64,000 nucleotides of DNA, from positions 28,472,534 through 28,536,533 of the forward strand of contig CM046858.1 of NCBI GenBank assembly GCA_025617745.1, in the 5' to 3' direction. A program made the translations under genes and the position numbers. The DNA is from Heliocidaris erythrogramma. Taxonomy: Eukaryota; Echinodermata; Echinoidea; Camarodonta; Echinometridae. The stretch's first letter is position 1. The number at the start of each line of letters is the position of its first letter. Below, piece after piece: positions 4,340 through 60,032 of the stretch. Below the pieces are notes generated by a model. It did not search any database, was not told the origin of the DNA, and saw nothing but the letters and a program-made list of their open reading frames with translations.

Positions 4340-5380
4340 ATGGAGACGTTGAACGACACCCTTGGCTCAAACGATGAGGAGGACGACAAGAGAGTCATCT
4401 ACATTCTCCAAGGCCTTGTCATCTTCGTCTTCGCCGTCCTCATCATCGCCACCAACATCTTGAACCTCATAATCATCCCTCGTTTACCAGACATCAACGA
4501 AGCCAGTAAGGTCTTCTACAACTGTCTGTCCTCCGCCGATATCCTCCTCGGTATCGTTCTTCTTCCCGCCTTACCGTCTGCGATAGTTGGTGGTTGGCCT
4601 TTCGGAGATGTCGTCTGCAAAATCTTTGGTTTCGGTATGACCCTAGTCGCCGGTCTGTCTTCCGGAAGTTTGCTGCTCCTCAATCTCGACCGCTTCTTCA
4701 GTATAGCTTCTCCACTTCGCTACATGGCCATCATGGATCGACGAAAAGCTTTCATTATCGCCATTAGTTCAGCCATCACCGAAGCAACTTTCCTATTAAT
4801 CATATTGTTTGTGAACCCCTTTGGTGCGGGAATCATTCGATACTCAAAACTTGGTGCGTGCATCATGTCTTTCTACGAACCGAGCTTCCTCGCGTATTCG
4901 CTCGCAATCTTTGCACTCTGTATCTGGTCATTCGTCCCGATCCTTGCCATCATGTACGCCAGGATTGTGTGCATCAGCAGGCGACACGTGAGACGCATTC
5001 AGGTCCAGGAACTTACAGCTCGAGTGAGCAAAGTAGACGGGAGCGATGAGCTGGGCTTACCAGACGATAAGCCCCTAGTGGCCAAGAAATCGGTCAACCA
5101 CCGAGCGATACGCATGACCCTTTTGGTTACCGGCACCTACGTCGCGGCCTGGGCGCCGTTCACAATTTGCCAAATTTATATTTCCGTGGTAAAAGATGTG
5201 TCAGTCATCGTGAGGGTGTTGGTATCTTGGCCGCTGCTGTTGAATCCTCTGTGCAATGTTATCATTTACTCGGTGACAAAACGTTCCTATCGAACTTTGG
5301 CGCGAAATCTACTGAAAGGTTGTCTGCGCTGTTCACTCGCAGATCTCCGTAACGCATCATCTCATGACATTCTTGTATAG
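4340..5380 (+). CDS. Class A (rhodopsin-like) GPCR, copy A
   Basis: This 346-aa receptor has seven hydrophobic segments. The N-terminus is short and acidic with an N-glycosylation site (N5-D-T). The conserved disulfide pair would be C93 (start of TM3) and C174 (ECL2). The DRY position reads D117-R118-F119. TM6 has W271-A-P273, and TM7 has N302-P303 through Y310 followed by a basic helix-8 segment. The protein ends in DILV, a possible class II PDZ ligand. The coding region is one exon. A consensus acceptor (TTTATTTCCAG, ending at 4327) sits 12 bases before the ATG, so an upstream 5'UTR exon is expected, and the start is fixed by alignment to the two paralogues. It probably signals through G proteins at the plasma membrane; the ligand is unknown. 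Expanded single-exon families like this are known in sea urchins (surreal-GPCRs), but membership is inferred. Confidence 0.93.
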   Translation: METLNDTLGSNDEEDDKRVIYILQGLVIFVFAVLIIATNILNLIIIPRLPDINEASKVFYNCLSSADILLGIVLLPALPSAIVGGWPFGDVVCKIFGFGMTLVAGLSSGSLLLLNLDRFFSIASPLRYMAIMDRRKAFIIAISSAITEATFLLIILFVNPFGAGIIRYSKLGACIMSFYEPSFLAYSLAIFALCIWSFVPILAIMYARIVCISRRHVRRIQVQELTARVSKVDGSDELGLPDDKPLVAKKSVNHRAIRMTLLVTGTYVAAWAPFTICQIYISVVKDVSVIVRVLVSWPLLLNPLCNVIIYSVTKRSYRTLARNLLKGCLRCSLADLRNASSHDILV

Positions 5381-16958: not shown

Positions 16959-19900
16959 TTACATTTTGCTGGTGCTTTCATTCGATATGGGCGTCGTCGT
17001 CAATGTTGAATTGCCTGTCGGTGTCCAGGAAGCAAACGATGTCCTGGCAAATGACATATAAAACTGTCCCAGTCGTTTGGCCAAAACCGCCCGCCACAGC
17101 CTACGGGTCCGCACATTCATACCGAAGGAGAAAAAGAACAAAACACCCTGGAGAGAGTTTAAGACGATGAACACGTACCAGAGTTGGGAAACTTTGACGA
17201 AGGCTGCAAGATAGCCGAAGAACCAGCCAAAACCAAATAGGCATGAAATCTGAAATATTGAGAGAAAAAAAAGAGAAGAATATTGCATGTTACAACTACT
17301 TTGGTACAGTATAACCACCAATCGAATGGCGAAAAGAGCGAGAGAGAGAGAGGGGGGATGATAAGGGTGACATGAGAAAGAGAGGATATGACACCTCCCA
17401 AACCCTAATAGATGATCATGTACTCTCACAGTTTTAGTCATCTTACGGAGACCGGTGCCCTCCCCTCCCAAAGGAAAAGAGCCCCTATAAGTGACTGAAC
17501 GCACGCTATGCCACTGTATCTACAAACAAACAGGGCAGAGGTTAAGAGACACACTCTGCATGTGTCTTAATATCGTCTTCGAGCAAATTTTTCAAGATGA
17601 AATTAAATTTTAAGCAATTTTAAGTAACCTCAAATAACTTGTGGCAATTGAACTAATATTATACAGCATTATTTTGATAGAAAGCTTGCTAAACGTTCAT
17701 GAAAATATGATTTATAGGCCCATTCTTATACATGTATATGTTTTACGCTATGTGATATTGATCTATCTAGTTCGTATACCTTGATGTAAAGCCGCAGAGC
17801 AGCAATGGTATCTTTGCGCTGTTGGTCATTACTTTGGCCTCTCTTGAGAACCTGGCACTCCTTCTTGATAGTCCGGAGTTGGCAGATGACCCTGACAAAG
17901 AGGACGAAGTTGAAGAACAAACAGATAGACACCGGTAAGAGGAAAGCATGTATGGTCCTCATAGAGGGATGAAGCCAACAGTCGGTACCTCCGTAGTAAA
18001 GGAGCTCAAAAGATCGGTTCTTGACAGAGAAAATGTGCACTCCAAGATATGGACTGACAATGACGATGGGGAACCCCCAGCCGCAGATACAGTACAATAA
18101 GAGTCTCTTTCTGCTTACAGAATCGCGTCTGGCGACGGTTTTAGAGAAAGCAAGACTCTGGCTGAGATCAAAAGCCATCGCACTCATCAAGGAAAACGCA
18201 GCTAAGGAAAAAAAGTGGGAAACACACGCGACAGCAACGCAGACGTCTGTCCCTTGTTCACTGATATATACCGATGCATAGAAACTCTTAGCCTTGAGAC
18301 TCGGGGCAACAAACTGCATAAGCACCTGTGCCATGAAAAGAGCAATGATGAACTGCATCACTAAGATACCTTGGATGTTCCGAAGACTAGTGAAGACACA
18401 ATATGTGAGGAAGGTAACAATGAGAGCCGCACATGATATACCAAAGAAGACCTTTGCGACGATTTGTTGGTTTTCAGTGTATTCAAAGAAGGCGAAATAC
18501 AGGGGTTGTCCTACGCATGTTACGTAATTCCCGTGGTATTGGTTTGTTCCTGGACATTTCGGATACTCATCAAGTAACGGAATTTGTTCCTGGCACAAGG
18601 CACACTCCCTGTTCCTGAAAAGGTTATCGATGTCAACAGGGGCAAAATCTGTCTCGCATTGTCTTCGGGTGATTCCACTTACATTTGCATCTAAAGGGCA
18701 GGACTGTATCATATCAGGGAAACACAAATGTGGGTCGGGCACCCAGGAATCACTACTTGTTTCGTTACCAACGCCATAGGTTAAAGGAAAGTAGGCGCAC
18801 TTAAAGTCATATGTTGGGCAAGGGTGATCCATAAAGTCCAGGTACGTCCGAAGAGTGTCCATATTTGCTCCATTACACATAGCACAGTATTCGCTGCGGA
18901 AGTGTAACCCCCGATCATCTAGGACAACAGGGTCTGTGCTGTCTTCCCGCTGACAAGCACGTCTAATCGCCTTATCCGACCAAGGATCAGGGCAGTCGCT
19001 GATGAGCTGGAAACGCTCGTCGTATACACCCGGTACGAGATCCGCACACATGGTCCCGAAGTCCACACACTGCCAGAGCTCTGGATCCTTGAACACACTG
19101 AGGGCGCTGTCGTTCGAGTTTGTTGAGTTAAAGTCCCTGCAACAATCCCGAAAGAAATCACAGAGGGGGTCACAGCGACAAAGTCTAAAGCGTTGCGACA
19201 TGTTACATGACTCTGTTCGACAGGATAAGTCTTCCCCTGCAAAAGAAAAATAAACATGGAACAGGCTAAATAAAGTCGGATATAAGCCTATAAAAAGCAC
19301 GAAATCGAAAATGTATTTAAGTATGTTTGTCGATTTAATAGTTATCATTGCATTAATAATTTTTTTAAAAGTCAATCGACCAATCTGTACGTCAATGATA
19401 ATGTTAAAACCAACATATTTTGTTAGTTTTCCGAGTAACGAACTTCAAATTTAGGCGGATTATTGTGTGCGTATCCTTTGTGGCAATTCCACTTTGATTA
19501 CGATTTTTTTGTCATTAAATAACCCAATTTATGATGAAAGAGTAAGTTCTAGAATATAGTGTAGTATCATGTCTCTTTCTCCCTCTCCCTATCTCACCCC
19601 TCTCTCTATCTCATCTTCTCTATATTTCTCACGCTCTCTATCCTTCTTATTTATACTACACTGCATAATTTAAACATTGCTATGTTGATTTTTGATGAAT
19701 ACCACGTCAACCCCCTCAATTCACCATGTTCAACAACATAGGCGGCATCAGGACCCGGAGGTGTATGATAACAGCAGCAAAGGATACAAACAAACACGTC
19801 TCCTTGCCCTCAGTATGCCCCCCTTTTTAAATCCTGGTGCCACCACAAATTTAGGATACTTACACGTATGCGTTGCATGGGAACCGGACCATGTATTGTT

Positions 19901-24687: not shown

Positions 24688-25125
24688 GTGAGTCTTTTTT
24701 TTTTCTTCTTGAGTTTTATTTTCTTTGAAACTTTGAAAGCCTTACAGCTAGAATATTGTTCTAAATGTTTTGGGAATTATGTATAGAGTCAGTTGGCATT
24801 GGCGGATGGGAGGGGGGGGGGGGGGGGGAGTATTATGCATTTTTTATGCCCGTCCCCTTTAGAGAGAAAACAAAATAGTTTGTGTATTGTATGATTGTAT
24901 CTCAGAAACTACACATTCAAATGTTCAGATATTTATCTTGTTGAAAATACAGTATAAAATACTTGTACCAAATTTCATGTAAATTCATGTATTTACTATT
25001 CAGTTGACTAATGCTCAAATGAATTCTTGGACATTTTCAGCGATAAAGACTCTCAGTACACACAGAGTGTGTATAGACTAGTTTGTGTGTAACTTTGCAT
25101 AGGAGCAGTAGGGGAAGGATATTAA

Positions 25126-25344
25126 TGTAGGTTTGGTCTTAAGGACCTCAACTACACGAGTAAATACTTAACTTACTGTAAATGGTGAAAAGCGCCGAAC
25201 TTACCGAGACTAAAGGTTCTGTAGTTTCCAGTTCGGTCAGTCTTGTTCGGTTCAGCATAATTTCCACACAGTCTCGTGCCCAAAGGTGTATGGCGCCCTC
25301 TAATGGGTAAAGCCCTATAGGGGGTGGGGGTAATTCCTACTACA
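25126..25344 (-). repeat. 3' LTR
   Basis: In element orientation this is the downstream LTR. It starts TGTAGTAGGAATTACC and ends CCTACA, is 219 bp long, and is indistinguishable by eye from 33366-33584. Confidence 0.93.
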
Positions 25345-25358
25345 TTCCCCCCTGTTTT
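25345..25358 (-). other. Polypurine tract
   Basis: Immediately inside the 3' LTR the minus strand reads AAAACAGGGGGGAA. This is a near-pure purine run in the position expected for the plus-strand DNA primer. The following 25359-26117 is the 3' non-coding region of the element, with an A run (minus strand) at about 25472-25490 and CG-rich inverted motifs around GAGTTCCCG near 25890-25945. Confidence 0.85.
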
Positions 25359-26117
25359 GAAAAACCCGGCCCATAACCAAAATGGGCCCGGGAAAATCCC
25401 ACCCGAATGAAAAGGAAAAAAAATTCTCTCTCCTTGCCCCAGAACTACGAGCAATATAGAACCAGAACACAATTTTTTTTTTTTTTTTTAATAAACCCAA
25501 CGCTCCAAAAAACTAGAAACATATGCCAGAGGAGATTCCCTACCCAGAATAATGCACGCTCTCATAGCGGTGAGCTGTCCACTTGTCCTTCCGGACTACG
25601 GCGCCATCTTACCTACCCAAGAGGTACATTTCTTGAGTTTTTCGGAGAGTGGCCGGAGAACCGGAAACTCACCTAGGTCACTCCGGCGCGGGAAGGAGGC
25701 GTCAGTGCCGCCATTACTCAGAGCGAGCCATTTGGAAAAAAGTCTCCCTGGAACAATCATAATATATGCCAACGGGCATTAGAAAAAACCGAAGATATAG
25801 AAAACACATTTACACATTTGCTAATATAGCAAAAAGTATTATGATCGAAACTCAAAAGTCCCCACCAATTAGTTCATCACGAACACAGGAACAGAGTTCC
25901 CGTGGGTTTCACCAGGAACACGGGAATGGAGTTCCCGCGGATTTCCGGGCCTACGGCCGTAGAGCGCCAGGGCGTTAACCCTAGTTTCCTCTAGCAAACG
26001 ATCCAGACGGACCCTGCGGAGAGCAATCAACTGGTCCTTGGTGAAGGACTTCACCAGGGCGTTGAAGAGAAAAGGAAAGCATAATTAGTTCCCGCACACA
26101 TGAACGGAAACCTAAAC

Positions 26118-29100
26118 TTACTTCCTTTCCTGCCCCACACACAGAGGACAATAATATTTATCTATATGGGTACTCTCGCTAGGGGTTACCCCCACACAGT
26201 CCCCATGAAACCAATCATCACAGCCGTCGCAGCCGATCATGAAGCGGGTCTCGTCATATGGTTTGCGACATAAGCAATACACAGCTTCCGGGTCGGCTCG
26301 CCTCCCCTCTCGGCACCACTCCGGCAACTCTCGGTCCCGGCACGGTTTTAGCCGATCCTGGTGTACGGTGGAAACCGACTTCCGGAGCTCCACCCGATAC
26401 AAATCGGGGGTTAACCTTTTGACTACCTTCCCGGGACCCTTCCAGGGGCTGCTCAGTTTCTTACATTTGCCCTTGACAGTTGCAGTGTCAAGGACATAAA
26501 CCGGGTCACCCTCCTGGAACTGCCTCCGGAAAGAATGTACATCGTAGTCCCGCTTCATGCGCATCTGAGCGTTCCTCAGATTAGCCCGGGCCGTCTCATG
26601 AGCAGCCTGGGTTGCTTTCATTAGCCTGCCCAAGTATTCCTCCTGGTCCCAAGTCACACTGTCCCCGGGTAGAGGATACATAATATGGGCTGGCTGATTC
26701 ACCTCCCGCCCTAGCATCAGCCGGTTAGCAGTATATCCGGTACTACGGTTAACCGTAGCCCTTAGCGCTCCAGCGATCTGAGGCAGGTACTCGTCCCACT
26801 TATTCTGGGTCCGCCCGATATAGCACCGGACAGCATCCATCAAGGTACGATTGTACCTTTCCACCTGACCATTACCCGAAGGTCGGTATGGCGTCGTCTT
26901 GGCCTTGTGGATCAGGAGAACCTTGCAGATACCTTTGAAAAGTCTGCTCTCGAAATTTCTCCCCTGGTCCGTAAAAATAGCGAACGGATACCCGAAACGG
27001 CAAAAGAATTCCCCAACCGCAGCACGGGCAGTCTCCTCCGCTGTCTGAGATGGCAGTGGGACGCACTCTACCCACTTAGTGAACTGATCCACCATCATGA
27101 GGATATGCTCATTCCCTTGGGACGACTTAGGCAATGGCCCCAGAAAATCCAGGTGAACCCGTTCCATGGGAGCCCCTGCGTGATAATTCCGCATGGGACT
27201 CTTACCGTACCTGGTGGCCTTCTTGTTCCTATTGCAGGTCGGGCAAGTTCGGACATAATCCGCCACATCCTTGCCCATTTTGTACCAGAAGTACTTGGCC
27301 CGAATGTAGGACTTGGTCCGATCCCTGCCGGGATGACCTGCGGCCGGAATGTCATGACTTGCACGCATGACTTCCTCCCTCAATGACCTGGGCACCAACA
27401 GCCGTGCGCCCTGGTCCTCCTCGTTTTTGCATATGACTCGTTCTACCCGCAGGAACTGGGCCCTATTAATCCAGAGAAATTTCTCCTCCGGACCCCACAG
27501 CATTATAGTGGCCTCATCCGGTTCCTGCCGATCATCGAGCCATTTCCCCAAAGCCATCAGAGCAGGATCCTTTTCTTGTTCAGCCCGCATCCTATCTGCA
27601 GGCAAGGGTTCCTCCTCCGCGACTTCCACAGGTCGGAGCCTTGCTGTTCTTACTATGGGTTCCCCCACCACAGCTCCGGCCCCCGCCGACGAAGTGCAGA
27701 CTACCACATGAGTCGCTCCAAAACTCTTCTCTAGCCCTGACTCCAACATGGCCTTCACCCTTGCGGCCCGGCCAGCAAGGGGAACCACATTATCGACCAC
27801 ATCGCCGAAAGTGGCCCAGTTCTTGTGAGCCTTGGAACAGTATCCGCACCCTCCGCACGGCAGGTGTTCTAAACTAAAACCCAACCGGTACTCTTCACAA
27901 AGCGGCTCCGCTAGTGGGACTCTAGACAGAGCATCGGCATTGGCATGCTTCTTGCCCGGACGATGTTCCAGGCGCATGTCATACTGACTGAGCTCCTCCA
28001 TCCAGCGGGCTAGTTGCCCCTGTGGGTACTTAAAATGGAGAAGCCATGTGAGGCTACTGTGATCCGTGCGGACCACAAACGGCTTCCCTAACAGATAATG
28101 GCGGTACTGCCGAGTGAATCTTACCACCGCCAGCAGTTCTCGCCGAGTTACGCAGTACCGCCGTTGTTCCGCGGTTAGCGCACAACTGCCATAGGACACC
28201 ACCCTCTCCTCCCCATCTTGTACCTGAAGGAGTTCTGCCCCGATGGCCTCATTAGAAGCATCCGTGTCCAGAATAAATAAATCCCGGCCATTAGGCATAG
28301 TGAGTACCGGTGCCTCCGTGAGACTGTCTTTAATTCCTTCAAAGGCTTGCTGTTGTTCTATTCCCCATTGAAACTGCTGTTTCCCGGTGATCCGGTAGAG
28401 GGGAACTGCAGTAGCAGCAAAGCCCTTGATGAACGCCCGGTGATAGTTGGCCAGGCCCAGGAATTGTTCGACTTGCCTTGTAGTTCTTGGAGTGGGCCAC
28501 TGGCGGACCGCCCGGATATGCTCCTCCCGGAGCTGAACCCGGTTAGCGCTCACCTCCCTCCCCAAGAACTCCACCTTTTCCTGGAATAGAACGCACTTTT
28601 TAGGCTTCAATTTAAGCCCAAATTTAGCGAACCTTCCCAGGACTTCCTCCAGATTGGCTAGGTGGTCTTCCACCGACTTTCCCAAGACAACAACATCATC
28701 CAGGAAGGCCAGGACAGTCTGCCAATTTATTCCCCTTAGGATTAGGTCCATCGCCCGCGAAAAAGTCGCTGGCGCATTACACAGACCAAATCCCATCCGC
28801 ACAAACTCATAGAGCCCGTACTTTGTGGTAAAAGCGGTTTTCTTCCTGTCTCCCGCTTTTATTTTTACTTGGTAGTAAGCCGAATTCGCATCCAGCTTAG
28901 AGAACCAAGCGTTACCAACTAGCGTGTCCAAACATTCCTCGATATTCGGTAGCGGGTAAACATCTTTCCGAGTTACCGCATTTAGTGCCCGGTAATCTAT
29001 ACACCACCGGACACCCCCGTCACGCTTCCGGACTAAGACCGGGGCCGAGGCCCACTCGGACTGGGAAGGTTGGATTATCCCTGCCCTAGTCATCTTGTCC

Positions 29101-30389
29101 AGATGCGCCTTTTCTTCCCCGGCAAAATTCAGCGGAGTACGCCTCATTTTCTGTTTAACCGGGGCTGCATTTTCGGTATCGATGGAATGTTCAACACCCT
29201 CAAATTTCCCTAAATCGAATTCGTCTTGGGCGAAAACCCCGGAAAAACGAATTAATAAATCCCGGAGTTTGTCCCGCCCTTCCTCCGATAAAAGGGTTGA
29301 GGACTGCTTGAACAGTTCGGCTAGGTGGGGTGGGAACCCCTCGGTCCCCCCTGTTTTGACTTGGGAGATCTCCCCGTCAAAGCTTACAGAGGAAGCCACC
29401 TGAGAGACCTCGGCCTGGAGTTCATGTGCCTCCCCAAGGACGTCCGCACAGGTAATTTTCCGGTGCCGGTCCGTGGGGTTAACCACATATACCTCCATCT
29501 CGTTCCCCGCCCCGTGCACGGAACAAGGAATCAAGAGGAATGAGTGACCCGACAGTGGCTCGAACACATAGTCCCCTAACCGTTGGTCTAGGACCCCGGT
29601 TATCCTCTTAACTGTATTAGGTGGGACTATAATTCTCTTGCGGACATGGACCCTTGCTACACCCATCTGCCTGGGATTATCCCCATGTAGCATGGGAATC
29701 TCTTCTCCCCCTAGCACCAGCTTCGGGTGAAACAAATGTATAATTGCCCTATGTTTCCCGAGAAAATCCATTCCCAGTAGCATATCATCTGTGATAGGTG
29801 CAACATACAGCCGCTCAGAGAACGTTTGTTCCCCCAACTGAATACTCACCGGCCCCACTATTGTCCCCTTCATGCTCATGTCTCTACCCGCCGCATGTAA
29901 TATGGCATTCCGGAGCTCTTTCGGCTGCGGTTTCAGGTGTTGCAGCACCCGATCGGAGATGATAGAGACTTCAGCCGCCGTATCCACTATTGCTCTAAGG
30001 GGGTGACCCCCTATAACTATAGGGACACTGAGCGAAGAAGAAGACTGAAGTCGGCAAACTACCACTTCTTCTATCTCATCGGATTCCGGTTCCGGACTCG
30101 AGGCATTATCCGGCATCGGATCCAAAGAAATGGTCTCCCTTGGACTGGTTGGAAGTTCGCAAGTGGTGACTTCCGCTATATACTGGGAAAATGCCCCCAC
30201 TACTGGATCCCCTGCAGTGAAAACCTCTCCCAGCTCCTTGGAGGCGTCTTCTGACCAGGTTTTGTCAGAAACCGGCATTCCCAGGTGCTTTTCAGCCGCC
30301 TGGTTGCCCGGCAACCCAGTCCTTAGTTGGCCTCTTTCGGGTCGGGCCGGGGGCTGGCCTCTGCCTCCGACCCGCTGGAGTTTTCCTCC
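26118..30389 (-). CDS. pol: Pol polyprotein: protease, RT, RNase H, integrase, C-terminal PHD finger
   Basis: The frame opens just after a TGA at 30390-30392 and has no early ATG. It is probably made as a Gag-Pol fusion by -1 frameshifting. Counting from the Leu codon at 30314 (1398 residues): protease D111-T-A; RT with FSKLDAN (472-477) and F-L-D-D (537-540); RNase H D683, E726, D751; a CGGCGYC cluster near 820-826; integrase zinc site H987, H994, C1024, C1027; catalytic D1056, D1116, E1152 (D-x35-E). A GPY/F-like module ([20 protein letters not shown]) lies at about 1289-1308. A C4HC3 PHD finger covers 1346-1392 (C1347, C1349, C1362, C1365, H1370, C1373, C1389, C1392). The whole frame is intact with every catalytic residue present. 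The PHD tail occupies the position of the chromodomain in chromoviruses. Confidence 0.95.
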
Positions 30390-32158
30390 TCAGGACAGTT
30401 GACAAAGGAAACCCGCACGTTCCCTTTGTCTCCCTTGGCTGTGGGGCAATCCTTCCGGAAATGTCCGTGCCCCCCGCAGGCATAACACCGATCGCCCCCC
30501 GGGGACTTAGCTCGCTCCCGGGAAGCCCCCGGCCTGGACTGCAGGGCCTCTAGGACCTTCCGGAGGTCCCGCTCTAAATTTGCTACCCGGGTATCCAAAC
30601 TGGCTACCCGGGTATCCAAACCGGCTACCCGGGCATCCAAATCGGTTACCCGGGCCTCTAGGCGGCCCCGAGGCTCACCCAATGCGGCGCGCTGCCGGTC
30701 TCCAGGGGGACGGCTCGACGATTGAGGGGGTAGGTCTATTTTGCGGACTTCGAAATCCCCCTCGTCCTTCAAGGCCACAGCCTTGACAGGTCGCCCACGC
30801 CCGTACATAGCCCTGTGTACATGCTGGTGCCACTGGATAGTTTTTTCGGCTTCTTCTACGGTGGCGGGGTGTTGAGTCAGCGTATGACACCCCGCCTCCC
30901 GATTTGAGCACCCCTGGCACAGACGGAGAATGGCCTGCTGTTGTACATACGACCCCTGGCCCCCGGGAAACGCCCGAAGGGCTAACCCGAGCACCCGATC
31001 GGACCAATCGGGCAGAGACTCTTCTGGTCCCTGCTTGGCCGCCGCGAACTCGAGTTGGGCGGATTCCGGCAACCCGCCCTCCCCGAATCGCTCCGACAAT
31101 TTGCGTACGAGCGAGAAATACTCCAAGTCTGGCTCCCTCTCAAGAGCCAAGCTCAAATACTCTCCCGCTTTTCCTTCCAGGCACCAACTAAGTTGATCTA
31201 GTCGTTGGGGAGATTCCCACCCCTGCCGGTCGGCAAAAGCCGTGAATTTATGGAAGAATGCCTTCCAGTTTCCCCGCCCGTCGAAGGAGATAGTTCTGGG
31301 AAGCGGCTGGTAGGCTGGCCTACCTGCATTTTCCCCAAGCTTACCCCTCCTAGGAGCAGAGCACCTATAATCTTGCTCTTCAGGAAAGAGGGGGGACCCT
31401 ATAGGACCCCCTGGATACCCTGAAAGGGGGTTGCCCCTTCCATGACTATCCCTTAAGCATTCCCGGCCTAATTGGGGTTGAAATTCCTCCCGAATGTCCC
31501 TGGAACTAAACCCCAGGTGTGACGAGACCCGGTGGTCCCTTCCCACCGCAGTGCCCCTCTGGCTGGCTTGCCAAAATGAGCCCCCCTGTTGGGGGACTAC
31601 TCGGGTAGGGGGGCTGACGTACCCCGCCCCCCTCCATGAACACCCCCCGGACTCCATGGGAACCTCACCTGCCCTCCCCATCCGCCGATAACTAATAGGT
31701 CCGCCCTCCCCTGGGTTTTCCCCAGCTCTATATTGGGGCCCCCCAGGAATGTGAGACATACTCGGGGCTACGCCCCGGGATTTGCGCGACACATCCCCTG
31801 AGGGAGGCGGATAAATATCATAGGGGTACTGATGGTCTATTGCCCCCATTTGTCCTACGTGGGCCCTAGCCCCGTTGGGGGTACTGGTGTAAACACCCCC
31901 TTTGCCCCCACCCTGAAGGGGCGTCCCCTCTGTGACCCAGGTGCTCTCTACGTCCCGAGGAGCAAAGTCGAATTGGTCAACCAGCCCCCGGGACTCTGTA
32001 AGCCCTGGAAATGCCACAAATAATTCAGGGGTTATATTCCCATGCTCAGTCCGGAGCCCTAAAATGATCCCGGCCTGCACGGGGTTGAGCCCCGGCATTG
32101 ATGCAAGTTCCTCGTAGGAACACATATTGATGGGGAGTCTACCCTCCCCCTCCGTCAT
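30323..32158 (-). CDS. gag: Gag polyprotein
   Basis: This is a 611-aa protein starting at an ATG (32158). Residues 8-56 resemble a helix-hairpin-helix segment ([20 protein letters not shown], then GIILGLR). Residues 70-285 are low-complexity and Gly/Pro/Arg-rich. Residues 288-445 match the retrotransposon Gag core (F..F..K.TAFAD..GW.., then [12 protein letters not shown]). Residues 496-540 form a heptad coiled coil built from repeated L-D-T/A-R-V-A units. Residues 558-571 are a CCHC knuckle (C558, C561, H566, C571) for nucleic-acid packaging. The gene ends at TAA 30323-30325, overlapping pol by 67 bases. A slippery-like heptamer GGAAAAC at 30386-30380 lies in the correct phase. Confidence 0.93.
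30581..30664 (-). repeat. 21-bp minisatellite encoding the Gag coiled coil
   Basis: About four 21-bp units (plus-strand core CTACCCGGGTATCCAAA) lie head to tail inside gag. Each encodes one heptad (V-A-x-L-D-T-R). In-phase repetition of 21 bp adds or removes whole heptads without breaking the frame. Confidence 0.85.
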
Positions 32159-33365
32159 TGCGACGATCTAAAAACTACTCTAAAATAACCGCTTTATTCC
32201 CGTCCAGTCCTAAACTACCCGACAGGGAAATATTACAACACTTGGAGTTTCCTAATTTATTAACGAAATCTCGCTAATACACTCACACACGAATAATCAC
32301 ACCACACACCGTCACAAACTTATTTCCTTTTTCTTTTCTTTTTTTTTTTTTTTTTTTTCTTTTTAACCGGACTCCCGCACTACAACGAGTGGGTGGGTCC
32401 ACACGCAACACAAGCAGAAACCATAAACTCACTCACACAATAGACTACACACAGCCTACCGCTATAGACCACTAGACTAGCTCGAAACTCCAAGCGTTCT
32501 GGCGCAGAAAACCTGCCCAAAACAAACCCAAACAGGGCACAATATACCCACTCAAACTCAGAAACAGTCACTAAATATATGAAAACGGATAAAAATACCA
32601 AAGACTTACCTAATCTAAGTTCAAATGAAATTCTCTGCCAAAAGCTGACGTCTGTGTCGATCCGCACAGCTAGCACAATACAAGATGGCGTCGATCGAGA
32701 GCGGAAAGCCCAAAGAGTATCCCTCCGCCAGCCACAACCACTATAGCTATACGAGTATAGCCGTTCCAGCCCAGGCCCTTGCGAGAACCTACGCGCTAAC
32801 AACAAATAGTGAGCAGACGAAACGAACACTCCAACTGACAAATAACCCACTTTCACACCCCAAAAGCACACGCACAACGACAATCACCTTAAAAAGACAC
32901 CAAAAACAGACACCTCACAGCGTTAACTAAGGCCAAACACCCGTGACAGAAGCAAAACAAGGACACACGTGTATAGCACTAGCCTTCTCACCCCCAACGG
33001 AAAAAACCCCGGCAAAAATTCGCCGGAACTACACTGGGACAGACGACTAAAAAAAACTCAGAAAAATGCCTCAAGCCGGGCCAATAACTCAGCCCGACCG
33101 ATGACACTCACACCAAACGCACAAAAATATATATCACCACGGTCAAAATAAACAAGGCCGACCTAGCAGCCCTGCCTTCGACAATAATCAAAATTTTTAC
33201 CCTACTGTGATTCCAATATCAGGCACAGCGAGCAGCTTAGCCCAACGCACGGGGTCGCACAAGATGCCTATGCGTATATGGGCAGCTGTGCCCGCTGTGT
33301 CAAAAAATTACGAGACAAAATTCGCCCACAAAGGCAAAATTCAGATCTGCAAGCAGCGTCAATAA
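32159..33365 (-). other. Element 5' leader
   Basis: This is about 1.2 kb between the 5' LTR and the gag ATG. It contains a long A run in element orientation (plus-strand T run at about 32338-32358). The sequence just inside the 5' LTR, TTATTGACGCTGCTTGC, has no TGG start, so a conventional tRNA-CCA primer site is not evident. An open frame at 32380-32883 begins at a non-ATG codon and is not called. Confidence 0.7.
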
Positions 33366-33584
33366 TGTAGGTTTGGTCTTAAGGACCTCAACTACACGAG
33401 TAAATACTTAACTTACTGTAAATGGTGAAAAGCGCCGAACTTACCGAGACTAAAGGTTCTGTAGTTTCCAGTTCGGTCAGTCTTGTTCGGTTCAGCATAA
33501 TTTCCACACAGTCTCGTGCCCAAAGGTGTATGGCGCCCTCTAATGGGTAAAGCCCTATAGGGGGTGGGGGTAATTCCTACTACA
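33366..33584 (-). repeat. 5' LTR
   Basis: This is the upstream LTR in element orientation. It is 219 bp, TG..CA, and identical by eye to the 3' LTR. It should carry the element promoter. No certain TATA box is seen, although CCTATAGGG occurs near its start. Confidence 0.93.
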
Positions 33585-33789
33585 ACATTTTCAAACTGAT
33601 ATGGCAATATGGTCTCATAATATTTTCTCAAAAAATCCTGCAGAATCAAATTTGGAACATTCCAAAATACCTAAGACCTGCTGGACAAATTTATAGCTCA
33701 AGAAATTGCCGAGATGTCACTTTAAAAATATTCATTTTCAGTTTTTCTTATAATGAAGAGATTAAACATACAACTTGTCCTTAACATCA

Positions 33790-48405: not shown

Positions 48406-49457
48406 TTATACAAGAATGTCATGAGACGTTGCGTTACGGATTTCTGCGAGTGAACATCGCAAACAACCTTTCAGCAACTTTCGCGCCAAAGTTCGATAGG
48501 AACGTTTCGTCACCGAGTAAATGATAACATTGCACAGAGGATTCAGCAGCAGCGGCCAACACACCAACGCTCTGATGATAATCGATACGTCATCCGTCAC
48601 CATAGCAACGTATATCTGGCAAATTGTAAATGGCGCCCAGGCCGCGACGTAGGTACCGGTAACCAAGAGAGTCATGCGTATCGCTCGGTGGTTGACCGAT
48701 TTCTTGGCCGGCAGGGGCCTGCCGTACGGTATACCTGGCTCGTCGCTTCCATCTGCTTTGGAAATTGGTCTAGTATGATTGGTAAGTTCCTGGACCTGAA
48801 TGCGCCTCACGTGCCTCCTGCTAATGCAGATGATCCTGGAGTACATGACGGCGAGGATCGGGACGAAAGACCAGATACAAACTGAGAAGATGACGAGAGA
48901 ATAAGCGATGAATCCGGCTCAGAGAACGACATTATACAGGCACCGAGTCTTGTGTATTCCACAATCCCCGCCCCGAACGGGTTCACAAATAATATGATGA
49001 GAAGGAACACTGTTTCGACGATACAAGAACTTACTACGATGATGAGAGCCTTTTGCCGATCCATGATTGCCATGTAGCGAAGTGGAGAGGCTATACTGAA
49101 GAACCGATCGAGATTGAGGAGCAGCAAACTCGCGGAGGACAAACCGGCGACTAGGGTCATACCGAAACCAAAGATCTTGCAGACGAAATCTCCGAAAGGC
49201 CAACCACCAACGATCGCAGACGGCAACGAGGGAAGAAGAACGACACCTAGGATGAGATCAGCGAAGGAAAGGCAGTTGTAGAAGACCTTACTGGCTTCGT
49301 TGATGTCTGGTAGGCGAGGGATGACGATGAGATTTAAGATGTTCGTGGCGATGATTAAGACGGCGAAGATGAAGATGATCAGGCCTTGAAAAACGAAGAT
49401 AAGTCCCAAGTCATCCTCCCCATCGCTGGAGCCACTGGTGACGTTCAGCCTCTCCAT
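48406..49457 (-). pseudogene. Class A GPCR paralogue with one-base frameshift
   Basis: This is the third member of the family at 4340-5380. The start MERLNVTSGSSDGEDD aligns with METLNDTLGSNDEEDD, and a TTTTGTTTCAG acceptor sits 12 bases before the ATG exactly as in the intact copies. The reading frame runs through TM1-TM4 and ECL2 (GACIMSFSEP), then loses one base near 48912-48915. The other frame continues FIAYSLVIFSVCIWSFVPIL through TM5-TM7 to the same DILV terminus. Apart from this deletion no stop interrupts it. The DRF, WAP and NP..Y positions are conserved. It may be a very young pseudogene or an intact gene with an assembly error. Confidence 0.85.
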
Positions 49458-49946
49458 GTCTGGTGCGATCTGAAACAAAAGGTAGATCACAATTAGTGAA
49501 TTTACTGGATACATTCCTAGTATTTGAAAGAGTAAAGCATCGTGCTTCACTGACCAAATTATTAACTTCAACTCTTGACCAAACACTATACCCAACTCAA
49601 ACCCTAAACCTAATCATGCTAATTGCAACCCTACCCATTACCCTACATCTTGGACAAAATAAAGTCCAGAATACTGTCACCGGTACTTAAACTACATTGG
49701 AGGACGAGTATCGAACAACCTCCCTGCATTTCTTTAAAAAAGCACTTCTCGTGACTACTTTGTTTTATAACTGACCTTTACTTTCCCTTTTCTACTTGAC
49801 TTGTGCATGTACACTTATACCTCAGTCAGACCGCGACTCCCAACCATCAACACTCCAGACCGACCTATTTTTCGGCTTTTGGGGGTAATGTAATTGTTTG
49901 TCCGGTATGTAGTCGGACTGGTGCCGGTCCTAGCGTGACTGGGATA

Positions 49947-58991: not shown

Positions 58992-60032
58992 ATGGAGACG
59001 TTGAACGACACCCTTGGCTCAAACGATGAGGAGGACGACAAGAGAGTCATCTACATTCTCCAAGGCCTTGTCATCTTCGTCTTCGCCGTCCTCATCATCG
59101 CCACCAACATCTTGAACCTCATAATCATCCCTCGTTTACCAGACATCAACGAAGCCAGTAAGGTCTTCTACAACTGTCTGTCCTCCGCCGATATCCTTCT
59201 CGGTATCGTTCTTCTTCCCGCCTTACCGTCTGCGATAGTTGGTGGTTGGCCTTTCGGAGATGTCGTCTGCAAAATCTTTGGTTTCGGAATGACCCTAGTC
59301 GCCGGTCTGTCTTCCGGAAGTTTGCTGCTCCTCAATCTCGACCGCTTCTTCAGTATAGCTTCTCCACTTCGCTACATGGCCATCATGGATCGACGAAAAG
59401 CTTTCATTATCGCCATTAGTTCAGCCATCACCGAAGCAACTTTCCTATTAATCATATTGTTTGTGAACCCCTTTGGTGCGGGAATCATTCGATACTCAAA
59501 ACTTGGTGCGTGCATCATGTCTTTCTACGAACCGAGCTTCCTCGCGTATTCGCTCGCAATCTTCGCAATCTGTATCTGGTCATTCGTCCCGATCCTTGCC
59601 ATCATGTACGCCAGGATTGTGTGCATCAGCAGGCGACATGTGAGACGCATTCAGGTCCAGGAACTTACAGCTCGAGTGAGCAAAGTAGACGGGAGCGATG
59701 AGCTCGGCTTACCAGACGATAAGCCCCTAGTGGCCAAGAAATCGGTCAACCACCGAGCGATACGCATGACCCTTTTGGTTACCGGCACCTACGTCGCGGC
59801 CTGGGCGCCGTTCACAATTTGCCAAATTTATATTTCCGTGGTAAAAGATGTGTCAGTCATCGTGAGGGTGTTGGTATCTTGGCCGCTGCTGTTGAATCCT
59901 CTGTGCAATGTTATAATTTACTCGGTGACAAAACGTTCCTATCGAACTTTGGCGCGAAATCTACTGAAAGGTTGTCTGCGCTGTTCACTCGCAGATCTCC
60001 GTAACGCATCATCTCATGACATTCTTGTATAG
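58992..60032 (+). CDS. Class A (rhodopsin-like) GPCR, copy B
   Basis: This 346-aa receptor differs from the one at 4340-5380 by one residue that I can see (I instead of L at position 193, in TM5), despite several silent base changes. It has the same C93-C174 pair, D117-R-F, W271-A-P, N302-P..Y310 and DILV terminus. The acceptor TTTATTTCCAG lies 12 bases before the ATG. Substitutions that are mostly silent in the coding region against a more diverged intron suggest purifying selection or a shared recent origin. It is either a tandem paralogue or the other allele of the same gene. Confidence 0.92.
   Translation: METLNDTLGSNDEEDDKRVIYILQGLVIFVFAVLIIATNILNLIIIPRLPDINEASKVFYNCLSSADILLGIVLLPALPSAIVGGWPFGDVVCKIFGFGMTLVAGLSSGSLLLLNLDRFFSIASPLRYMAIMDRRKAFIIAISSAITEATFLLIILFVNPFGAGIIRYSKLGACIMSFYEPSFLAYSLAIFAICIWSFVPILAIMYARIVCISRRHVRRIQVQELTARVSKVDGSDELGLPDDKPLVAKKSVNHRAIRMTLLVTGTYVAAWAPFTICQIYISVVKDVSVIVRVLVSWPLLLNPLCNVIIYSVTKRSYRTLARNLLKGCLRCSLADLRNASSHDILV

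Follow-up and report, generated by a model that had tools for sequence, protein, structure and literature searches.

A Ty3/Gypsy retrotransposon of the sea urchin Heliocidaris erythrogramma with a PHD finger at the integrase C terminus resembling readers of histone H3 lysine 4 methylation

Why should the integrase of a retrotransposon end in a PHD finger, and could such a module direct the enzyme to a particular kind of chromatin? The question is raised by a 64,000-nucleotide stretch of contig CM046858.1 from H. erythrogramma (assembly GCA_025617745.1, positions 28,472,534 to 28,536,533; the whole stretch is called the window here), in which a complete long terminal repeat (LTR) retrotransposon occupies positions 25123-33584 on the minus strand. 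An in-frame C4HC3 PHD finger at Pol residues 1346-1392, behind the SH3-like domain of the integrase, had been noticed in a sequence-only reading, and both the finger and the four residues assigned there to a methyl-lysine cage (Y1346, Y1353, M1359, and W1368) were confirmed, the feature lying on the minus strand. The explanation we favor, with moderate confidence, is that the element belongs to a Gypsy lineage whose integrase-borne PHD has been kept by selection as a methyl-lysine reader, most likely of di- or trimethylated lysine 4 of histone H3 (H3K4me2/3), which would bias integration to active chromatin.

The pair of LTRs, the Gag-Pol organization, and the order of the domains identify the element as a Ty3/Gypsy LTR retrotransposon (Table 1). 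When Pol was scanned in pieces against Pfam, aspartic protease, RVT_1, RNase H, Integrase_H2C2, and rve followed one another in the Gypsy order; the Pol frame is −1 relative to that of Gag, and the coordinates indicate that it is open over the last ~67 nt of Gag. In Gag, the zf-CCHC match scored 23.3 bits (cut-off, 20.8), while HHH_3 at the N terminus (21.4 bits; cut-off, 27) and DUF7310 in the coiled-coil stretch before the CCHC knuckle (21 bits; cut-off, 40) stayed below their cut-offs. Directly outside the LTRs, at 25119-25122 and 33585-33588, lie the 4-bp duplications ATGT/ATAT, which match in three of the four bases. The element does not classify as a chromovirus, given that the C terminus of its integrase is a PHD finger and that no Chromo domain was found by Pfam in Pol residues 1200-1398 at E values up to 1. 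A Ginger1 DNA transposon was also ruled out, since the terminal repeats are direct LTRs and a reverse transcriptase is present; inverted repeats of 60 bases or more were not found, shorter ones not having been sought.

The PHD is not the accident of a single chimeric copy. The 1.064-Gb genome (26 contigs) was searched with the 99 residues of the tail-plus-PHD as a query, and among the matches listed, for which 150 of 422 candidates were scored, at least 25 copies, the window copy included, match across all 99 residues at 97% identity or more, and 19 of them at 100%. In 14 of these close copies, the open frame is 1420 aa or longer. The remaining listed matches are more distant or partial; 20 such further places were fetched, not all of them independent because some come from one family, and the full PHD pattern is present in 17 and damaged in three (L010, L027, and L028). 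The 219-bp core of the LTR was found at the 24 other close copies, and the final TTA follows it in 22 of 23 3′ LTRs. Complete LTRs stand on both sides in 20 of the 24, and the two are identical in 16 of these 20 by ungapped comparison. Target duplications of 4 bp were found at 21 sites (window included; 14 perfect and seven with three of four bases matching). The family is therefore young, as the identical LTR pairs of most copies, the target duplications, and the near-identity of the copies show, and the element is recently active and apparently intact. Three peculiarities of the copies deserve mention: the imperfect duplications, with one base of four differing in seven of the 21 young copies, mostly accompany identical LTRs; seven copies in the range L029-L076 have LTRs only ~91% like the window LTR, yet 99-100% identical tail-plus-PHD proteins, which suggests an exchange of LTRs between families; and L019 carries a three-residue duplication inside the PHD (CDGCDGCDEW) within an open frame of 1387 aa.

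The finger itself has its eight zinc ligands arranged as C4HC3 and scores 42.3 bits against Pfam PHD (cut-off, 24). Compared with PDB sequences, it is closest to PHF2 (73.8 bits), which leads BPTF (72.3 bits) and CFP1 (71.6 bits) by a small margin, and its cage residues align in sequence with the positions seen in PHF2/BPTF. A fold search with the predicted model likewise returned PHD fingers that read H3K4 methylation as its best PDB matches. The PHD fingers of the KDM7 family (PHF2/PHF8/KDM7A), BPTF, CFP1, and DIDO1 thus resemble the element PHD in both sequence and fold, though all of these are host chromatin proteins. On this basis, the element PHD is of the H3K4me-reader type and would be expected to bind histone H3. 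A fold search of BFVD gave integrase fragments and fragments of chu-like viruses, with no clear arrangement of an integrase C-terminal domain (CTD) followed by a PHD among the 50 matches listed, a result that excludes nothing.

Homologs were sought in three protein searches, with 148, 284, and 720 matches, and the best 120 of each yielded 326 different proteins. Among the matches listed, the full C4HC3 pattern was found in 225 of the 326, comprising 216 distinct PHDs; these fractions are biased upward, and to that extent speak less strongly for a general PHD, because every query included the PHD. Of the 101 homologs without the full pattern, 35 lack the tail motif that precedes the finger, 50 stop fewer than 75 aa beyond this motif, and 16 run further; the printed tails of these 16, read by eye, show a damaged or cut PHD in 13 and a different tail in three (P0105, P0245, and P0297). 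Hosts of the proteins carrying the Pfam PHD include the echinoderms Strongylocentrotus, Lytechinus, Diadema, and Anneissia, the molluscs Mytilus, Mercenaria, Argopecten, Pecten, Pinctada, Haliotis, Nucella, and Plakobranchus, and the crayfish Procambarus. Proteins P0004 from Strongylocentrotus and P0049 from Argopecten received the Pfam PHD label but failed the strict C4HC3 pattern, and two from Elysia (P0247 and P0326) have integrase domains without a PHD. Judged from these protein sequences, PHD-ended Gypsy integrases mark a wider lineage spanning at least three phyla of animals (echinoderms, molluscs, and crayfish). The positions most conserved apart from the zinc ligands are the cage Trp, present in 204 of 204, and the cage Met (99%). 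Cage position 2 is Tyr, Trp, Phe, or His in 99 of the 216 distinct PHDs and Asp or Glu in 100 (Asp alone in 93). Replacement sites differ from those of a sister family (L009) at only 3.0 of 116.8 while silent sites are saturated, a pattern that indicates purifying selection on the PHD.

Several entries from these searches are of interest for annotation. Two proteins of Mytilus galloprovincialis, P0186 and P0300, are annotated as COMPASS component SPP1 but contain rve and integrase H2C2 domains in addition to the PHD, and look for that reason like misnamed element integrases; integrases with a PHD may thus be mistaken for host chromatin genes. Proteins P0060, P0149, P0169, P0269, P0304, and P0316, the last with integrase domains only, are filed under bacterial metagenome-assembled genomes (Sedimenticola, Thiodiazotropha, and others), and such element proteins are probably host contamination. 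An RGRP-type motif, which we take to be AT-hook-like, lies in the linker before the PHD in P0055 and replaces the PHD in P0105.

The origin of the finger is a separate matter. The sequence-only reading proposed that this element had captured a KDM7-type reader, because the spacing of its cage residues, 7-6-9, is that of PHF8, a KDM7 family member, and the same capture could have taken place in its urchin branch, the new finger replacing an older PHD. PHF2 is indeed the best PDB match of the window PHD, and the motif YD.TRFMI is common to the window PHD, PHF2, and an exon for half of a KDM7-like PHD at C1:73694826. This exon was found in a genome search with a PHF2 peptide (79% identity over residues 1-29, after the element copies, which came first) and presumably belongs to the host KDM7 gene. 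The element PHD does not have the interruption seen at that exon. In a PHD-only tree (61 rows and 48 columns; poorly resolved), the window family was drawn with KDM7 and CFP1 (85/79), in agreement with the proposal, and neither a window-KDM7 clade (p 0.359 in the approximately unbiased test) nor one uniting all the element PHDs (p 0.403) was rejected. The integrase-only tree, which was built from 77 rows chosen from 119 passing coverage by a quick method with SH-aLRT (approximate likelihood ratio test) support only, points instead to a loop derived within the elements: the window pairs with P0124 (99), P0125, whose loop has 11 residues, joins them next (99), and all three fall in a group of 14 rows (99), the rest of which show 11-residue loops except for one row that lacks the PHD; the long loop of P0185 arises separately, so that two origins of the long loop are needed. 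The 12-residue loop that corresponds to 7-6-9 occurs in only three of the 216 distinct PHDs (P0005, P0124, and P0185), besides the window and the sister family L009, while 206 have an 11-residue loop, the spacing of element PHDs being mostly 7-5-9. The window PHD is also about as close to that of P0125 (30/48 identities) as to PHF2 (32/49); the C-terminal halves share 15/24 and 14/24, respectively, and the N-terminal halves 15/24 and 18/25. A profile of 24 chosen element PHDs does not single out KDM7 either (CFP1, 78.5; PHF2, 77.3; DIDO1, 76.7; and BPTF, 75.8 bits), and when four other element PHDs were compared with the PDB, KDM7 members came top for two and CFP1 for two. These scores lie only a few bits apart, and the lineage can be placed in the class of H3K4me3 readers but given no clear parent. 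Capture of a KDM7 finger by this element is accordingly unsupported, and we regard it as improbable; the integrase tree points to a 7-6-9 spacing derived among 7-5-9 elements. A young copy at C1:73729528 stands ~35 kb from the KDM7-like exon, which may be chance.

If the finger serves integration, the course of events could be as follows: once reverse transcription is complete, several PHD fingers would be present in the intasome, and their binding to the methylated H3 tail would bias strand transfer to active, H3K4-methylated chromatin. The surroundings of the young copies were compared with this expectation. At 18 of 21 young insertion sites, GC content was higher within 500 bp than at 1-3 kb (mean +0.031; p 0.0001), and the observed/expected ratio of CpG was higher near the insertion at 16 of 21 (p 0.0033). 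After eight sites sharing longer near repeats were dropped by our choice, and five with shorter or farther shared stretches were kept, the GC rise persisted at 12 of 13 sites (p 0.0012 at 500 bp). A GC peak is compatible with regulatory DNA, and also with a plain preference of the integrase or of nucleosomes. Ten long flank open reading frames (ORFs) comprised one host BTB-Kelch gene, four transposon proteins, one weak Orf78 match below the cut-off, and four without a match in Pfam, and ten nearer ones had no Pfam match. Targeting to Pol III genes was rejected as an explanation, no Rfam match having been found in the 40 flank loci scanned out of 48, from 20 copies.

A number of observations weigh against the favored explanation. 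Several interval sizes were tried for GC and CpG, the p values are uncorrected, and the comparison was made without a PHD-less family. In eight random regions, too few and noisy, the GC differences at 500 bp lay around zero (mean +0.007). The insertion sites share repeats, and several of the insertions (L040, L041, L042, L045, L046, and L062) are situated within or next to copies of a single DNA repeat that resembles an inverted repeat. Among the 13 remaining sites, the rise in CpG was weaker, with p 0.08 at 500 bp (9 of 13) and p 0.04 at 1000 bp. Only one of the 20 scanned flank ORFs is a host gene, the BTB-Kelch gene, more than 1.6 kb from the insertion, in a scan of low power for which no control was scanned. 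As for the cage, it is incomplete in the many relatives with Asp at position 2, so that a preference for H3K4me3 need not be general, and its geometry lacks independent model support, because the N-terminal part of the modeled PHD, which contains both cage Tyr residues and the cage Met, has a low mean predicted local distance difference test score (51 for model residues 141-150 and 74 for 151-160, as compared with 91-95 for 161-190). The insertion-site data are thus weak, and steering to promoters by the PHD, as proposed in the sequence-only reading, may be considered a conjecture.

The same conservation and signs of purifying selection would also fit a PHD that reads H3K4 methylation for another step and leaves the landing site unchanged; it might tether the pre-integration complex to chromatin, promote nuclear retention, or act when the element is later expressed. 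That no clear preference for genes was seen among the insertions, at low power, agrees with such a role, but the young sites are compositionally non-random, and in Ty3 a module of chromodomain fold at the same C-terminal position acts in target choice (PMC8632968); we consider this explanation possible but rather doubtful. Ty3 bears in another way on the thought that the role which preserves the PHD fold is independent of histones and consists in contact with a protein partner, the target DNA, or a non-histone H3-like peptide. Its chromodomain is without the cage and makes contact with both TFIIIB and the target DNA (PMC8632968), and the PHD of PHF2 has also been solved with a VRK1 peptide, as the title of the structure entry states. 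In the present elements, unlike the Ty3 chromodomain, the cage Met and Trp are near-invariant, though both could serve folding, and a histone-independent role appears unlikely to us. On a bolder view, the alternation of aromatic and acidic residues at cage position 2 beside a fixed Met and Trp might make the finger a tunable address reader. Families would then differ in the H3K4 methyl state that they recognize, at promoters or at enhancers, and would divide the genome among themselves. We put this forward tentatively, as something that may be true but that we would not expect. The BPTF Y17E mutant was solved with H3K4me2, as judged from a structure entry title, and Y17 of BPTF would correspond to cage position 2 of the elements.

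Related systems help to place the element. The mark read by the chromodomain of chromoviruses is H3K9me, whereas H3K4me would be expected for the PHD element, and the PHD of CR1-like long interspersed nuclear elements sits in ORF1. The CR1-like elements, as judged from a reference title, are retroelements with a PHD like the window element, but non-LTR. Chromoviruses are likewise Gypsy elements whose integrase terminates in a chromatin-reading fold (PMC3605345), which is a chromodomain there and a PHD zinc finger here. In Ty3, too, an additional module follows the CTD of the integrase, and Ty3 was matched at rank 41 in Foldseek. Its vestigial chromodomain takes part in targeting, and the module has no aromatic cage (PMC8632968), unlike the PHD element, which keeps the cage residues; Ty3 targets TFIIIB, in contrast to the Rfam result above. 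Ginger1-9_HM, one of 16 families tabulated in PMC2836005, has a PHD finger behind a Gypsy-type integrase, but it is a DNA transposon that carries Ulp1 together with the PHD, and not an LTR retrotransposon. An engineered fusion of ING2-PHD and LEDGF-IBD sent HIV-1 integration to start sites (PMC8149907); there too a PHD is tied to an integrase complex, but the fusion is artificial and LEDGF-bridged, while that of the window element is natural and direct. If the PHD does read H3K4 methylation, the PHD elements would be a natural animal counterpart of that engineered fusion and also of the chromodomain elements, whose address is the opposite one. The many natural variants of one reader on one integrase would allow reader specificity to be tested against landing sites by comparison alone. 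Reader-bearing Gypsy integrases are already known. Among the papers listed by our literature search, which did not extend to Repbase or closed journals, no title or beginning of an abstract reported a PHD in a Gypsy integrase. The term PHD was not found in those parts of the main text that were available for a mollusc survey (PMC6238403), which describes 21 Gypsy clades, mostly new, and for an annelid survey (PMC8556966).

Table 1. Features of the retrotransposon, in window coordinates
Feature	Positions	Strand	Remarks
5′ LTR, 222 bp	33363..33584	minus	100% identical to 25123-25344
Gag ORF, 611 aa	30323..32158	minus	N-terminal helix-hairpin-helix (weak), coiled-coil-like stretch, one CCHC zinc knuckle
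Pol ORF, 1398 aa counted from first TTG	26118..30314	minus	frame open to about 30389
Integrase SH3-like (GPY/F-like) domain (~26331-26537) plus linker	26280..26537	minus	
C4HC3 PHD finger and tail, Pol residues 1346-1398	26121..26279	minus	Y1346, Y1353, M1359, W1368
3′ LTR, 222 bp	25123..25344	minus	identical to 5′ LTR

Apart from the retrotransposon, the window holds two rhodopsin-type G protein-coupled receptor ORFs of equal length (346 aa), at 4340-5380 and 58992-60032, and more ORFs for such receptors at 17726-19375 and 48807-49595.
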